A DNA stretch of 64,000 nucleotides from the NCBI GenBank assembly GCA_903970285.1, contig CAJCHN010000076.1, positions 1 through 64,000 on the forward strand. The letters are read 5' to 3'. Origin of the DNA: Rhodanobacteraceae bacterium. Its GTDB lineage: Bacteria > Acidobacteriota > Terriglobia > Terriglobales > Acidobacteriaceae. Both the position numbers and the translations under genes were made by a program. Positions 23,733 through 30,152 of this stretch are shown in pieces. Positions within the stretch are counted from its first letter, which is position 1; every line of letters begins with the position of its first letter. The notes beneath the pieces were generated by a model. That model had not been told where the DNA came from. It saw only the letters and a program-made list of their open reading frames with translations, and made no database searches.

Positions 23733-25820
23733 TTACCGAACCACTCCAACGGACTGCACCATTGTCATGGGCGGGATTTCGCTGGGCGAGATCACGACAA
23801 TCTTGGGCAGGAACGGCTCCAGCAGGCGACGCAGGTAGAACCTTCCTGGCGAGGAGCAGAGCAGAACCGGTGGAGCCTCCCCAACACGCTCACCAAATGA
23901 GGATCGCAAGCTATCTAGCACGCGGCGTGCCACAGAGATTTGCAGAGCGCTGGAGGAAAGCTGGCCTGCGTTTGAATTTGCCGCACGCATGCATTCCTCC
24001 TCAATAGCACTATCGAGGGTGACGACTTTCAACTCGCCGCGAGGATCAAGCAACGGCCGGATGAGCGCGCGGCCCATCGTCTGGCGTGCGGCTTCGACGA
24101 GAGCCACGGAGTTCTTGTTGGTGGCGGCGGTGTCGACGAGCGATTCCAGAATCGAGCCGAGATCGCGGATGGAGACCTGCTCGCGCAAAAGCTGCTGCAG
24201 CACCTTCTGAACTTCGCCCAGGCTCATCAACTTGGGAATGAGCTCTTCCACCAGCTTTGGATGAGAATCATTAAGACGATCGACGAGGCGCTTGGTCTCC
24301 TGCCGGGTCAACAGCTCGTAGGCGTTGCGCTTGATGAGTTCCGCGAGGTGAGCGGCGAGCACCGATGTGGTGTCAACGACGGCATAGCCGGCGGCGATCG
24401 CCTGCGCCTGCAGCTCCTTGGCGATCCACTTCGCGGGCACCCCGAAGGCCGGTTCACGGGTCTCTTCGCCCGGAAGGTTCGGCGCCGCGGTGTCGGAGCT
24501 TACGGCCAGCAGAAAGCCCCGGCGCAGCTCCCAGCGGGCGATCTCCACGCCGCGCAGGTGAACAACGTATTCGCCATCGCGGAGCGAAAGGTTGTCGGTG
24601 ATGTGGATCGATGGGACGAGGAATCCGAGTTGGCCGGCGAGGCTCTTGCGCAGCGCTTTGACGCGGGCCAGAAGCTGTCCGCCCTGCTTGGCATCGACCA
24701 ACGGAACCAGGCCGACGCCAACTTCGAGCATGAGCTCGTCCAGCTTGAGGACCGTATCCATGGGGTCGACAGCCGGGGATGCCGAGCCGGGCTTGCCCTT
24801 GGCGGGGGTGGCCAGCTCTGCGAGCTCCGCATCTTCAGGCGCCTTCTCCACCTTGATCTTCCATGCGGCGTACATCATGACGCCGCCGAGCAGGAAAAAC
24901 GAGATCTTCGGCAGACCGGGTATCAGCCCCAGCGAGCCGAGCACGCCGCCGCCAATCCACAGCAGACGAGGGCTGCTGAGAAGTTGCTTGCGCACGTTGA
25001 CGCCCAGCGAATCCTTAGAAGCGGCACGGGTGACCACGATGCCGCCGGCGATTGAAACCAGCAGCGAGGGCAGGATGGAAACCAGGCCGTCGCCAACGGT
25101 GAGGATGGTGTAGGTCTTCAGAGCGTCCTGGAAGGGGATTCCCTGCTGGAAGACGCCGATCAGGAAGCCGGCGATGATGTTGATCGCCATGATGAGGATG
25201 GTGGCGAGCGAGTCGCGCTGGGAGAACCGGGCGGCTCCGTCCATGGCTCCGCAGAACTCCGCCTCGCGGGCGACGTTTTCGCGACGCTTGCGCGCCTGCT
25301 GCTCGTTGATCAGACCGGCGTTCAGGTCGGCATCGATGGCCATCTGCTTGCCCGGCATCGCGTCCAGCGTGAAGCGGGCGGTCACCTCCGCCGTGCGCAC
25401 CGCGCCGTGGCTGACGACGAGATACTGGATGGCGACCAGGGCGAGGAAGAGCACGAAGCCCACAACGTAGTTGCCGCCGACGACGAACTGACCGAAGGCT
25501 TCGATCACGTGGCCCGCCGCGGCCGAGCCTTCGTTGCCGTGCAGCAGGATGCGCCGCGTGCTGGCGAGATCGAGCGAGAGCCGCAGCATGGTGAGCAGCA
25601 GCAGGAGGCTGGGAAAGACGGAGAACTCGACCGGCTTGAGGATCTGCACTGCGGTCAGCAGCACCAGCACGGATGCGGTGATGCTGAAGGTAAGCATGAG
25701 ATCGAGCAGGAAGCTGGGCAGCGGCACCAGCATCACAAACACCATCGCGACCGCGACAATCGGAACGATCCACTCCCCGGAAGAGGCGACCAGCTTCAAC
25801 ACTCCATTTTCTTTTTTCAT
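23733..25820 (-). CDS. flhA: Flagellar export gate protein FlhA
   Basis: 695 residues, the family length. Eight N-terminal membrane helices are followed by the FHIPEP signature VTARFTLDAMPGKQMAIDAD, including the conserved linker Asp, and a ~340-residue cytoplasmic domain (QEI-type LRDGEYVVHLRGVEIARWE, then ELLTRQETKRLVDRL). FlhA forms the nonameric ring that receives export substrates and couples proton flow. It starts inside the flhB stop (4-nt overlap). Confidence 0.96.
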   Translation of the reverse strand: MKKENGVLKLVASSGEWIVPIVAVAMVFVMLVPLPSFLLDLMLTFSITASVLVLLTAVQILKPVEFSVFPSLLLLLTMLRLSLDLASTRRILLHGNEGSAAAGHVIEAFGQFVVGGNYVVGFVLFLALVAIQYLVVSHGAVRTAEVTARFTLDAMPGKQMAIDADLNAGLINEQQARKRRENVAREAEFCGAMDGAARFSQRDSLATILIMAINIIAGFLIGVFQQGIPFQDALKTYTILTVGDGLVSILPSLLVSIAGGIVVTRAASKDSLGVNVRKQLLSSPRLLWIGGGVLGSLGLIPGLPKISFFLLGGVMMYAAWKIKVEKAPEDAELAELATPAKGKPGSASPAVDPMDTVLKLDELMLEVGVGLVPLVDAKQGGQLLARVKALRKSLAGQLGFLVPSIHITDNLSLRDGEYVVHLRGVEIARWELRRGFLLAVSSDTAAPNLPGEETREPAFGVPAKWIAKELQAQAIAAGYAVVDTTSVLAAHLAELIKRNAYELLTRQETKRLVDRLNDSHPKLVEELIPKLMSLGEVQKVLQQLLREQVSIRDLGSILESLVDTAATNKNSVALVEAARQTMGRALIRPLLDPRGELKVVTLDSAIEEECMRAANSNAGQLSSSALQISVARRVLDSLRSSFGERVGEAPPVLLCSSPGRFYLRRLLEPFLPKIVVISPSEIPPMTMVQSVGVVR

Positions 25821-26920
25821 GACCTGACCAACTCTCCCGAGGCATTGCGACTGCGGCGCATGGCTTCCTGTCTGCGGACCTCGGCCTGAGCGCGGAAGAC
25901 GACGACGAGGATGTCCGCGACGGCCTGATAGAGGGTCGAGGGGATGGGCTCATCCACCTCGACCGTTTTGTAGAGCGCCTGCGCCAGGGGCTTGTTTTCG
26001 AGGACCATGATGCCGCTCTCGATGGCGAGCGCCTTGATCTCCTGCGCGATCAGGTTCATGCCTTTGGCGACAACGATGGGAGTCGCCATGTCGGGCGTGT
26101 AGCGCAGCGCTACCGCGTAGTGGGTGGGATTGGTAACAACCACGGTCGCGGTGGCGGCCGCGGCCAGCGTCTGCTTCTTGCGGCGGCGGCGCTGCAGGCG
26201 GCGGATGCGGCTCTTGATCATGGGATTTCCGTCGGTCTGCTTGTGTTCTTCCCGCACCTCTTCGCGGGTCATCTTCATATCGCTCTGCATCTTCATCCAG
26301 GTCAGGAAGTAGTCGACGCCGGCCCACGCCAGCAGCACCAGCGAACCCTTCCATCCAACCTCGTAGACCATGCCGCCGATGGTGGAGGCGAGCCCACGCA
26401 GGCCCAGCGAGTTGGCGCGCACCATGATCCCCCAGTGAGAGGCGATTGTGGATTGTGCGATCCAGGCGATCGCGCCGAACGGCAGCAGAGACTTGAGCAG
26501 GTTGCTAAGCCCGGACAGCGAAAAGATGTTGCTGATCTTACTGACTGGATTAAAGCGTTCGGGCTTGGGTGCAAGCACTGCGGGCGCAAAGTTCACCCCG
26601 CCCTGCGCAAGGCCCGCGGCGACCGACAAGGCCATGGAGGCGAGCAGCACCGGCACAATCCAGCGAAAGACCTCGATGGCGCCCCAGAAGAAGATGGGGC
26701 TGCTGCTGCCCATATCCTCAGTGGCGGCGTTGTCGAGCACCATGCGGTAAAGCGTCCCCCAATGCGAGAGCGCACCCTGCGACATCATGCACAGCGCGGC
26801 CACAGCGCCTACGATGGCGAGCAGGCTTGGCAGCTCTCGCGAGCGCGTGACCTGACCCTGCTCGCGCGCCTTCTCGCGCCGTTTGGGGGTTGCCTGTTCG
26901 GTTTTGCTGGAATCCGCCAT
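25817..26920 (-). CDS. flhB: Flagellar export switch protein FlhB
   Basis: 367 residues with four membrane helices and a basic cytoplasmic C-terminal domain. The autocleavage motif NPTH (in TNPTHYAVALRY, near residue 270) is intact, so FlhB should undergo the specificity switch from rod/hook to filament export together with FliK. N-terminus MADSSKTEQATPKRREKARE is typical. Six bases separate it from fliR. Confidence 0.95.
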   Translation of the reverse strand: MADSSKTEQATPKRREKAREQGQVTRSRELPSLLAIVGAVAALCMMSQGALSHWGTLYRMVLDNAATEDMGSSSPIFFWGAIEVFRWIVPVLLASMALSVAAGLAQGGVNFAPAVLAPKPERFNPVSKISNIFSLSGLSNLLKSLLPFGAIAWIAQSTIASHWGIMVRANSLGLRGLASTIGGMVYEVGWKGSLVLLAWAGVDYFLTWMKMQSDMKMTREEVREEHKQTDGNPMIKSRIRRLQRRRRKKQTLAAAATATVVVTNPTHYAVALRYTPDMATPIVVAKGMNLIAQEIKALAIESGIMVLENKPLAQALYKTVEVDEPIPSTLYQAVADILVVVFRAQAEVRRQEAMRRSRNASGELVRS

Positions 26921-26926
26921 CGCCGC

Positions 26927-27697
26927 CTAACGTGCCAGGTGAAGGAGCCGGTCGGCGTAGCCCATCGACTCCAGAAAGAGGTTGCGAAACATGTCGGGCC
27001 AGTACTTGAGCGAGGAGAAGAGAATGGCCAGGCCGAGCAGGCTCTTCACCGCGGGCCCGAGCATCATCAGGGGAAGCTGCGGCGAAGACTTGCCGAGGAG
27101 CCCGAGCACGATGTCCGTCAGGAGCGTGGCCGAAAGTACGGGCGCGGCAATCTGCACGCCGACCAGCAGGATGCTGGCGCCGGAGCCGACCAGACTCATC
27201 GCGAAGGGCCGCGTGAGCTGGGCCGTGCCCGGAGGCAGATAGGTGAAGCTGTTGCCGATGGCGCGCAATAGCCAGAGATGAACGTCCAGCCGCAAGAAGA
27301 TCAGCATGGCGAGCGACTGATGAAACATGGCCATGACTGTGGTATCGACCTGCGTAGTGGGATCGAGGATGTTCACCAGCGAGTAGCCCATCTGGATGCT
27401 CAGGATCTGGCCCGCCATCTGGACCGCCTCGAAGACGATGGAGGTCGCGATGCCGAACGCAACCCCCAGCAGAAGTTCGCGAAAGACCAGCAGCGGCCAC
27501 TCGCCGAGCGGCAGCGGAGTGAGCGAGCGCGAGAGCATGGGGTAGAGCAGAACGGTCAGCAGAAAGACCAGACCGGCCTTGATTCGGGCGGGAATGACGA
27601 CGCTGCCGAGGAACGGGGCGAAGAGCATCAGGCCGGAGAGCCGGACGCTGATGGCAAGGAAGGCCTGGATGACGTCTGCCAGCGGAATCTTGATCAC
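26927..27697 (-). CDS. fliR: Flagellar export gate protein FliR
   Basis: 256 residues from GTG 27697, whose GTGA overlaps the fliQ stop; this gives the standard FliR length and the usual N-terminus (ADVIQAFLAISVRLSGLMLF). About six membrane helices. FliR joins FliP and FliQ in the helical export gate. Conserved SLVNILDPTTQVDTTVM and FMSLV-like FAMSLVGSGASILLVGVQIA are seen. An upstream in-frame start at 27763 would lie within fliQ and is unlikely. Confidence 0.93.
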   Translation of the reverse strand: MIKIPLADVIQAFLAISVRLSGLMLFAPFLGSVVIPARIKAGLVFLLTVLLYPMLSRSLTPLPLGEWPLLVFRELLLGVAFGIATSIVFEAVQMAGQILSIQMGYSLVNILDPTTQVDTTVMAMFHQSLAMLIFLRLDVHLWLLRAIGNSFTYLPPGTAQLTRPFAMSLVGSGASILLVGVQIAAPVLSATLLTDIVLGLLGKSSPQLPLMMLGPAVKSLLGLAILFSSLKYWPDMFRNLFLESMGYADRLLHLAR

Positions 27698-27963
27698 TCG
27701 AGCACCCGGTGGAAGTCCGACAGCATGAGGACGGTGTAGTTGGCGAGGTGGCGAAACATCCACGGCATCAGAATGAAGATCGCGCTACCGGCGGCCAGCA
27801 GGCGCGGAACGGTGGAGAGCGTCTGATCCTGCAGGGACGTGAGCACCTGCACCACGTTGACGAGGAGGCTGACGACGATCGCGACCAGCAGAATGGGAGC
27901 GGTCAGGATGATCACCTGCTCCAGCATCAGCCTGCCCATGGAGACAACGGCATCGGTTCCCAT
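27694..27963 (-). CDS. fliQ: Flagellar export gate protein FliQ
   Basis: 89 residues, exactly the family size, with two membrane hairpin helices. Diagnostic segments: LTAPILLVAIVVSLLVNVVQ and TSLQDQTLSTVPRLLA. Part of the FliPQR export gate. Its start overlaps the fliP stop by one base and its stop overlaps fliR. Confidence 0.95.
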   Translation of the reverse strand: MGTDAVVSMGRLMLEQVIILTAPILLVAIVVSLLVNVVQVLTSLQDQTLSTVPRLLAAGSAIFILMPWMFRHLANYTVLMLSDFHRVLE

Positions 27964-28766
27964 CAGCTGAAGCTCCTCATCAGGGCGCCGATCAGCAGGT
28001 GCCAGCCATCCACCATCAGGAACAGAAGCAGCTTCAAGGGCGTGGAGATGACGACCGGCGGAAGCTGCATCATGCCGACCGAGGTCGTGATGGATGCGAC
28101 CACCATGTCGACGATCAGGAACGGCAGGAAAAGTACTGTTCCAATCTGGAAAGCAGCCTTCAACTCCGACAGAATGTACGCTGGCAGCATGACGCGGAAG
28201 GAGAGATCCTGCACGTTGTGGGGACGCGGCTCTTTCGCCAGTTCAAGGAACAGGGCAACGTCCTTGTCGCGCACATAGTGGGCCATAAACTGGCGCATCG
28301 GCTCACCCGCGCGGCTCAGCGCCTCGACCGGCGTGATGGTACCGGCCTGCAGCGGGACGATAGAGTTGTCGTAGATAACGACACCGACCGGCTGCATGAG
28401 AAAGAACGTCAGGATCATCGAGAGGCCGATGAGGGTCTGATTCGAGGGCGTGGTTTGCAGTCCGAGTGCCTGACGTAGAAAGTGAAAGACGATCAGCAGG
28501 CGCGCGAAGGGCGTTACGCAGAGCAGGATCGACGGGATCAGCGTCAGGAACGTCAGCAGAACGACGATGGTCCACGGAGCCGAGTTTCCGCCCAGGCCTG
28601 TAATCTGCAGGCCGCCGGCACTGGGTGCGGTCGGCGGCAACATGGCGGAGAGCGAATGCAGCCCCACCGCTGCACTGAACACGGGAGCGGACTGCGCCCA
28701 CGATGCCGACGGCAGCAGAGCGCCCGCGAGCAGGGCGGCGGCCACCACTTTGCTGATCGTCTTCAC
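27963..28766 (-). CDS. fliP: Flagellar export gate protein FliP
   Basis: 267 residues with a cleavable signal peptide (residues 1-25, ending SWAQ) and four membrane helices. The FliP signatures are present: TFLTLIPSILLCVTPFARLLIVFHFLR and LPAYILSELKAAFQIGTVLFLPFLIVDM. Five FliP subunits form the core of the export gate. Overlaps fliO and fliQ by a few bases each. Confidence 0.96.
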   Translation of the reverse strand: MKTISKVVAAALLAGALLPSASWAQSAPVFSAAVGLHSLSAMLPPTAPSAGGLQITGLGGNSAPWTIVVLLTFLTLIPSILLCVTPFARLLIVFHFLRQALGLQTTPSNQTLIGLSMILTFFLMQPVGVVIYDNSIVPLQAGTITPVEALSRAGEPMRQFMAHYVRDKDVALFLELAKEPRPHNVQDLSFRVMLPAYILSELKAAFQIGTVLFLPFLIVDMVVASITTSVGMMQLPPVVISTPLKLLLFLMVDGWHLLIGALMRSFS

Positions 28767-29500
28767 GAGCGCGGCTCCATCGCCGTTCCGGCGGCGTGCC
28801 AGCTTTGCTGCTGCTGATCGAGCACGGCCAGCAGCGAGACCTGGCCAGCCGCTCCGCCAATCAAGAGCTGCGCCCCATCGACCTGCAGGATGGTGACGAA
28901 CCGCTTCTCTCCCAGCGAGACCGTCTCCGTAACCTTCATGCGGCGCGACGAGAACTGCTGCATGCGCTTCTTCTCAATCCACTTCAGAGCGGAAAAGACC
29001 TGCTTCAGCAGGTTCGCCGCGGCTGCGGCGGGCACGGCTACAGAGGCCCGGCCGCCGAGGGGTGGTGCGCACGCAACGCTGGCGGGACGCGACGAGAACC
29101 GCGCCTTGCCCTTCGTCTCAATCCACTTCACAGCGAGGAGTAACTGCTTCAGCAGGTTTGGAACAGGTGCGGACGGAACCGCCGAAGGCGCTTGGCTGCC
29201 CGGTTGCTGTGAGCCATCGCCACTCGCGCGGCGCGTTGAGCTTCGAAGGTTTGCCGCAGGTCTCACCGGAGCCACCGAAGAAAGGGTTCTGTTCGCCGGC
29301 CGCGTGCCACTGACCTTGATACGAGCGAGCTGCTGCACGCGCTTCTGATCAAGCCACTTCAAGATGTTTGGCTGAGTTGAGCGTGCACTGGCCGAGGGCG
29401 CCAGCGCCAGGCGCGCGGCCGTCACCGCGTCCACCTTGCTGCCAGCGGAACGTGCGTGCAGCGACTGTTCGCTTTCGAGGATGCGCTGAGCGGAGGTCAT
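28763..29500 (-). CDS. fliO: FliO-like protein with triplicated juxtamembrane segment and no clear membrane anchor
   Basis: 245 residues in the fliO position (fliN2-fliO-fliP-fliQ-fliR). The C-terminal ~60 residues match the FliO domain: MKVTETVSLGEKRF, VTILQVDGAQLLIGG and VSLLAVLDQ. FliO normally has one membrane helix followed directly by this domain and helps FliP assemble. Here no long hydrophobic helix is visible. Instead a segment is repeated three times: around residues 45-68 (NILKWLDQKRVQQL), 115-142 (NLLKQLLLAVKWIETK) and 162-189 (NLLKQVFSALKWIEKK). Its ATGA overlaps the fliN2 stop. Family call good; the architecture is unusual. Confidence 0.75.
   Translation of the reverse strand: MTSAQRILESEQSLHARSAGSKVDAVTAARLALAPSASARSTQPNILKWLDQKRVQQLARIKVSGTRPANRTLSSVAPVRPAANLRSSTRRASGDGSQQPGSQAPSAVPSAPVPNLLKQLLLAVKWIETKGKARFSSRPASVACAPPLGGRASVAVPAAAAANLLKQVFSALKWIEKKRMQQFSSRRMKVTETVSLGEKRFVTILQVDGAQLLIGGAAGQVSLLAVLDQQQQSWHAAGTAMEPRS
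28934..29368 (-). repeat. Three degenerate direct repeats inside fliO
   Basis: Imperfect coding repeats encode Asn-(Ile/Leu)-Leu-Lys … Lys-Trp-(Ile/Leu)-(Glu/Asp)-X-Lys blocks. The two C-terminal copies start 47 codons apart and the first lies 70 codons earlier. The plus-strand DNA shows the relatedness (for example CTCAATCCACTTCA in two copies and CAAGCCACTTCA in the third). Confidence 0.7.
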
Positions 29501-29802
29501 ACGAGCTCCGTAATCCGCGCCGCCAGGCGCTCACCGACCACTTCAAACTCGGTCCAGGCCATCAGCGTGCCGTTAACGTGAAGCGGAATGTCGGTGCTCT
29601 GATTGCACGCAGTCTGAACCAGCGAACCCTCTTTCAGGCCAAGCAGCGAACCCACGGTAAAGCCGACAACGGGCACTTCAAGCGTCAGCTTGCAGGGCAG
29701 CCAGGGAAGCACTTCCCTCGGAGAACGGTCAGTCCCCGCCGGACGAAAGCCCGTGGCTGCCATGTGCGAATTTACGTTGGAAACGGATGCTGTACCTGTC
29801 AC
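29497..29802 (-). CDS. Second FliN-like SpoA-domain protein
   Basis: About 101 residues with one SpoA domain in the C-terminal 70: LPWLPCKLTLEVPVVGFTVG, LLGLKEGSLVQTACN and FEVVGERLAARITELV. It resembles FliN/FliM C-terminal domains but differs clearly from the fliN at 21.7 kb. The start is uncertain: GTG 29802 has AAGGGG upstream, ATG 29763 is also possible. It heads the fliO-P-Q-R-flhB-flhA block, with a sigma-54-like promoter at 29911-29926. A role in the C-ring or in docking the FliH-FliI complex is inference. Confidence 0.72.
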   Translation of the reverse strand: MTGTASVSNVNSHMAATGFRPAGTDRSPREVLPWLPCKLTLEVPVVGFTVGSLLGLKEGSLVQTACNQSTDIPLHVNGTLMAWTEFEVVGERLAARITELV

Positions 29803-30152
29803 GAAGACCCCTTGCCGCCGATATGCTGCATGTCCCGCTCCGCCCTGCGCTGCTGTGCGAGCCCAACAACGGCACAGCAGACTGCGAGGACGGAGCGGCA
29901 CCCTGAGCGAAGCAAATGGGGGACCAAAGTGCGGTAAGCGGCAGGTCGAAGGAGCCGTGTTTCAGGCCCTAAGCGGGGGACAGAGGTACAACCTTAGAGG
30001 AGTTCGCGGAGACCGTCCGAGATGCATTGCCGCAGCAAGACCGCGCATACGGAGCCCGAGGAGCATGAGCGCCGGGAGAGCCGCTCACCCCTTCCTGAAA
30101 AAGGGGGCGAACGGTTCTCACCGGTTCCTCATAATTGATCTGGAGCCGTGGT
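29803..30152. other. Non-coding gap between flgE and fliN2
   Basis: About 350 nt without a supported gene. It holds the sigma-54-like site at 29911-29926. It also holds an imperfect GC-rich hairpin around 30079-30120, which may end the fliK-flgD-flgE transcript but has no T-run, and the small palindrome GAACGGTTC at 30109-30117. Plus-strand open frames here are low-complexity shadows. Confidence 0.6.
29911..29926 (-). promoter_or_regulatory. Putative sigma-54 promoter of fliN2-fliO-P-Q-R-flhB-flhA
   Basis: Minus-strand TGGTCCCCCATTTGCT fits TGG-N10-TTGCW with the correct spacing; the -24 element is less perfect (TGGTCC) than the others in the locus. Leader to the proposed start is about 100 nt. 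Confidence 0.6.

Follow-up and report, generated by a model that had tools for sequence, protein, structure and literature searches.

A FliO homologue lacking a transmembrane helix and carrying three related helical blocks in a flagellar export operon of the Acidobacteriaceae

In published descriptions FliO is a chaperone integral to the membrane, and stabilisation of FliP has been credited to its transmembrane (TM) helix. The Salmonella protein is bitopic, its TM helix spanning approximately residues 17-43 (PMC2947984), and it has been reported to stabilise FliP and promote FliP ring formation (PMC5542435; PMC5542437), to shield FliP from proteolysis and aid formation of the FliP-FliR complex (PMC5542435), and to form a scaffold ring (PMC5542437). 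The overproduced soluble part of the protein (residues 43-125) rescues a fliO deletion. By itself this part does not increase the amount of FliP, an increase that the authors ascribe to the TM helix (PMC2947984). A 2025 survey, in which a single TM helix before the domain belongs to the conserved FliO core, noted TM-less FliO sequences in Acidobacteriota, for which it left open a choice between annotation error and divergence (PMC12403147). No other paper devoted to TM-less FliO was found in our literature searches, which missed most subscription papers.

Here we describe a FliO of this kind and the family to which it belongs. A family in which FliO is encoded beside fliP but has no helix represents a natural separation of the two parts of FliO, and points to FliP changes that accompanied helix loss. 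In addition, it bears on the published question of annotation error versus real divergence. The triplication described below is an elaboration private to this genome and is of less interest.

The fliO gene and its three related blocks

The window, that is, the whole stretch of 64,000 nucleotides that was analysed, carries on its minus strand the gene order fliN-fliO-fliP-fliQ-fliR-flhB-flhA of a flagellar export operon. The fliO gene (28763..29500, minus strand) is an open reading frame of 245 residues, and its Pfam FliO match (PF04347; residues 173-232, 28805..28984, minus strand; 47.5 bits against a curated cut-off of 22, E 1.9e-12), which overlaps block 3 and the predicted strands at 188-228, bears out the clear C-terminal FliO domain of the preliminary description. 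Its ATG, with GGAG ahead of it, shares four bases with the fliN stop (ATGA); at the other end fliO has a stop of its own, which overlaps the GTG start of fliP (GTGA), and a FliO-FliP fusion is thus absent here. Upstream lies the fliN frame (29497..29901; FliMN_C, by open reading frame and Pfam), whose true start is probably inside the frame, downstream of its GTG. Downstream, and likewise on the minus strand, Pfam identified fliP (27963..28766), the presumed client of FliO, with W65 at the start of its first TM segment, followed by fliQ (27694..27963; Bac_export_3), fliR (26927..27763; Bac_export_1), flhB (25817..26920; Bac_export_2) and flhA (23733..25820; FHIPEP). The Pfam matches of the export genes around fliO are nearly full length, and flgE, flgD and a FliK-like gene, whose own match falls below the curated cut-off, are positioned on the other side. 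The family model match and the place in the operon make the window protein a genuine FliO of the export apparatus, a FliO by descent despite the absent TM helix, and it is filed here as a variant. Its sequence had no match among solved structures at E values up to 10, and a fold search of its model against solved structures gave no match at E ≤ 0.001. When named genomes were scanned with the window FliO, no relative was confirmed, and FliP then served as the query for a further scan.

Three blocks precede or join the domain: block 1 (residues 45-66, NILKWLDQKRVQQ; 29303..29368, minus strand), block 2 (residues 115-138, NLLKQLLLAVKWIETK; 29087..29158, minus strand) and block 3 (residues 163-186, NLLKQVFSALKWIEKK; 28943..29014, minus strand), the last being joined to the domain. 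They begin with NILK at 45 and NLLK at 115 and 163, with spacings of 70 and 48, the latter correcting by one residue the 47 given previously. In protein self-alignments, block 2 against block 3 plus domain scored 92 and block 1 against block 3 scored 57, values reached by none of 2000 shuffles each (highest 46 for the former; 43, or 51 with the domain included, for the latter), while the score of 40 between blocks 1 and 2 was reached by 37 of 2000 shuffles and is weak taken alone. DNA alignments with codon shuffles gave 81 for blocks 2 and 3 (highest shuffle 30) and 46 for blocks 1 and 3 (highest 32), with 0/1000 in both cases, and 25 for blocks 1 and 2 (45/1000); an ungapped direct-repeat search at default settings returned no direct repeat. 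By these alignments the relation of blocks 2 and 3 is certain, and block 1 is real but shorter. The earlier suggestion of three related blocks holds for the pairs 2/3 and 1/3, and blocks 1 and 2 are connected mainly via block 3. As had also been proposed, what has been repeated is the segment immediately preceding the domain, and the protein is without an anchor.

The AlphaFold2 model (mean pLDDT 64) places predicted helices at 46-60, 114-130 and 158-185 (approximately 62-86), one for each block, with low-confidence stretches between, and four predicted strands in the domain (188-195, 201-207, 210-217 and 220-228; pLDDT approximately 85-92). In the model of a single-block relative, L123 (mean pLDDT 77), residues 31-55 form one long helix, and the four strands recur.

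To assess how widely the repeat occurs, the pre-domain stretch of each FliO was compared with its N-terminal remainder (at least 25 residues) in 147 entries. Three of these, all fetches of the window gene, scored 92 (0/300 shuffles), and the best two of the other 144 comparisons scored 34 and 28 (3/300 shuffles each), approximately at chance level. Among the FliO proteins examined, the triplication has been seen in this genome only, and the nearest relatives in the FliP tree (L033-L037, L123 and L100, which is Granulicella aggregans; support 0.95) carry one block. Blocks 2 and 3 differ by a pS of 0.15 and a pN of 0.21 over 24 codons, a comparison without detectable constraint, and of low power because it covers 24 codons only. 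Block 3 plus domain differs from five relatives by a pS of 0.56-0.64 and a pN of 0.18-0.36, and is constrained with respect to the nearest of them (pN 0.18, pS 0.64). Because the pS between blocks is far below that to sister species, the duplication looks recent, later than the split from the nearest relatives, unless gene conversion has reduced pS.

There is about an even chance that the extra blocks are neutral, the outcome of recent slippage or unequal exchange in a tolerant, disordered N-terminus. The pN and pS between blocks 2 and 3 reveal no constraint, the repeat is absent from every other FliO tested, and the length ahead of the FliO domain varies widely in the family, up to approximately 244 residues. 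However, the small power of 24 codons tempers the first of these points, and the frame, the K-W-I/L core and the predicted helicity have been retained in all three blocks. Neutrality of this kind would concern the repeat only and is compatible with the account of FliO itself that we favour below.

The missing membrane helix across the family

In agreement with the preliminary description, no TM helix was found in the 245-residue product. The highest 19-residue Kyte-Doolittle mean ahead of the domain is 1.37, the insertion-energy proxy is 5.3 against an outgroup median of -1.7, and residues 1-45 and 110-175 hold no confident TM helix. The same state extends through the family, which is the Acidobacteriaceae by the names of related records. 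The Kyte-Doolittle maximum is at most 1.37 in 132 of 134 family loci, with 1.65 in L181 (borderline) and 2.61 in L029, and at least 1.75 in all 92 FliO from outside the family; L158 and L159, representing the two other FliO-carrying families of the class, are both TM-bearing. Similarly, the insertion-energy proxy is at least 2.34 in 131 of 133 family proteins (L181 0.47, L029 -1.52; one family protein was shorter than the scanning window) and at most 0.62 in all 92 outgroup proteins. Separation is poorer on the octanol scale, on which a favourable window occurs in 40 of the 132 family proteins that were long enough (out of 133) versus 59/59 in the outgroup. All three are hydropathy measures.

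The family search covered 200 genomes and found FliO in 89 of them, at 92 places, of which 91 were kept; together with 7 and 12 further loci and 24 named records, the latter assigned by FliP similarity and, mostly, record titles, these make up the 134 family loci. The outgroup consists of 89 of 92 listed places and three loci of other phyla. Among the first 133 family loci there are five pairs of identical proteins, and L032, L155, L156 and L157, repeat fetches of counted loci, were excluded. L093, L208, L233 and L234 were dropped as not FliO; they match PF04347 at E values of approximately 1e-3 to 1e-5 and the profile at 0.05 to 6, with no fliN or fliP in the fetched stretch, and matches of this type are a caution for low-threshold FliO surveys. 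Four further FliO proteins, L007, L071, L115 and L121, have 262 to 338 residues without the repeat of the window, the long extension being N-terminal in L007, L071 and L121 and C-terminal in L115. The last comes from a record titled Verrucomicrobia bacterium Tous-C9LFEB, perhaps mislabelled, whose FliP is 82% identical to that of the window and whose FliO is TM-less.

The preliminary description had attributed the missing anchor to duplication. This does not hold, since single-block relatives are also without a TM helix, and the loss came earlier. In a tree of FliP from 183 of 192 loci (nine were without a usable FliP, L029 among them, and the last 37 stretches, L198-L234, are outside the tree), 126 of 126 TM-less tips fell into one clade, sister to the TM-bearing L158; support for the TM-less clade is weak (0.51), and reaches 0.986 with L158 added. 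The distribution on this tree suggests that the TM helix of FliO was probably lost once, in an ancestor of the family. L029 is a second, TM-bearing FliO of genome G141, which also holds the TM-less L047, identical to L117 of Silvibacterium bohemicum. L029 was probably acquired, because the best matches of its FliP are outgroup FliP sequences.

When family and outgroup FliO were aligned as profiles (probability 99), the aligned part began, in the family, at a conserved W-L, which falls on the final residues of the TM helix in the outgroup, on the domain side; nothing further upstream aligns. We read the short Trp/Leu/Arg helix before the domain as a putative stump of the lost TM helix, a reading that rests on few columns.

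FliP and the candidate accounts of an anchorless FliO

At fifteen columns of FliP, the TM-less clade is almost fixed for a state rarely found outside it, as counted over the 183 tree tips only. L158 shares the family state at eight of them and differs at columns 65, 91, 123, 228, 239, 242 and 244 (numbering of the window FliP); because it is without the family state there, these seven columns changed near the TM loss. The link between FliP change and TM loss is a correlation only, since the changes fall on approximately one branch. W65 is present in 125 of 126 TM-less tips versus 0/57 TM-bearing tips, and its local alignment with Salmonella FliP, in which FliO has been crosslinked to TM1 (residue 52) and to the periplasmic domain (PMC5542437), is ambiguous. 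Both bypass changes of Salmonella are absent from the window FliP, which keeps R and F at the R143 and F190 positions. There is also no sign that the TM helix was relocated to the FliP N-terminus: family N-termini are if anything less hydrophobic, with a median of 1.58 (n=120) versus 2.04 (n=20), the 20 being the only TM-bearing loci whose FliP core matched a text pattern.

In three family loci, fliO and fliP share one open frame: L105 and L108 (each from 3308), both Terriglobus MAGs, and L120 (from 2612), an Acidipila MAG. The TM-less FliO domain precedes the FliP signal sequence in all of them. The fused protein could restore an anchor to FliO, and separate translation of FliP is possible because candidate internal starts precede the FliP signal. 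Outside the family, fliO and fliP of L173 also form one open frame.

The account we favour, and hold to be reasonably probable, is that a soluble or peripheral FliO, its TM helix having been lost in the family ancestor, still chaperones FliP and is kept close to it by gene overlaps and by contact. FliO of the family would act on FliP from the cytoplasm or the membrane surface; the overlapping fliN-fliO-fliP genes would have it made next to FliP, and contact with FliP would hold it in place of a TM helix of its own. In the genome of the window, the leftover helix would recently have been copied to three on disordered linkers, and the additional copies may make for tighter binding to FliP or to the membrane surface, or be neutral. 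The constrained domain, the family-wide TM state, the overlaps, the single clade and the rescue by the soluble part in Salmonella all speak for a soluble chaperone; against it stand the failure of that soluble part to increase FliP, the absence of bypass residues and the weaker octanol separation. FliP W65 and the three fusions fit the proposed contact with FliP.

A somewhat unlikely alternative is that the leftover helix serves as an in-plane, peripheral membrane anchor, with the triplication strengthening membrane binding. The helix has conserved Trp, Leu and Arg/Lys residues; in some relatives (L122, L004) the region is rich in Trp and octanol-favourable, and the window protein has three distinct predicted helices. 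Nevertheless, the hydrophobic moment is not above chance in the blocks (permutation fractions of 0.66 for block 1, 0.08 for block 2 and 0.27 for block 3), only 11 of 127 family regions fall below 0.05, and the family profile has no amphipathic window there.

A second fliO and fliP, on contig C81 of the same genome, raise the further possibility that the window fliO is decaying while another flagellar gene set remains. We judge this very improbable: the open frame and both gene overlaps are intact, block 3 and the domain are constrained, the neighbouring export genes are matched at about full length, and the C81 FliO is also without a TM helix. The C81 copy (L002, L157) and the window copy sit on different branches of the FliP tree of the family.

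Finally, an annotation artefact, with a true start upstream that includes a TM helix, is scarcely credible, even though the survey found such cases in short FliO of other bacteria and considered them possible for Acidobacteriota (PMC12403147): wrong start codons are disfavoured because of the gene overlaps, the window ATG lying in the fliN stop with GGAG ahead; fliN was recognised immediately before fliO in 128 of 133 family loci, overlapping by 4 bases in 61, and fliP downstream in 131; and scoring of the open frame from the fliN end to the domain in those 128, and of the entire frame in the remaining five, yielded a TM helix only in L029 and a borderline one in L181. The family data favour real divergence over annotation error for the Acidobacteriota sequences.

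Beyond the soluble or peripheral chaperone, a fuller scenario may be sketched, to which we give distinctly little credence as a whole. FliO would have become non-integral in the family, and FliP would have been remodelled at approximately the same time, with W at the start of its first TM segment and threonines near the last two hydrophobic segments. The gate would then assemble without a FliO membrane helix, the triple helix being a multivalent tether in this genome and FliO-FliP fusion taking that part elsewhere.

Comparison with described FliO systems

FliO of Salmonella enterica shares with the window protein the small C-terminal beta domain, the operon place directly before fliP and the presumed action on FliP. 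It differs in having the TM helix, which the window FliO is without, and the latter has three copies of the pre-domain helix in addition. The TM-less FliO of Acidobacteriota and Thermotogota in the 2025 survey (PMC12403147) are like the window protein in having a FliO domain without a recognised TM region, and the Acidobacteriota sequences are from the same phylum; the survey's passages on them mention no repeat and do not state the family of TM-less FliO, whereas the trait is placed here on one family. The fliO-fliP gene fusion mentioned for Buchnera sp. APS (PMC2947984) is, by its description, one frame for FliO and FliP, as in L105, L108 and L120; set beside that description, the FliO part of these three is TM-less and located before the FliP signal sequence.
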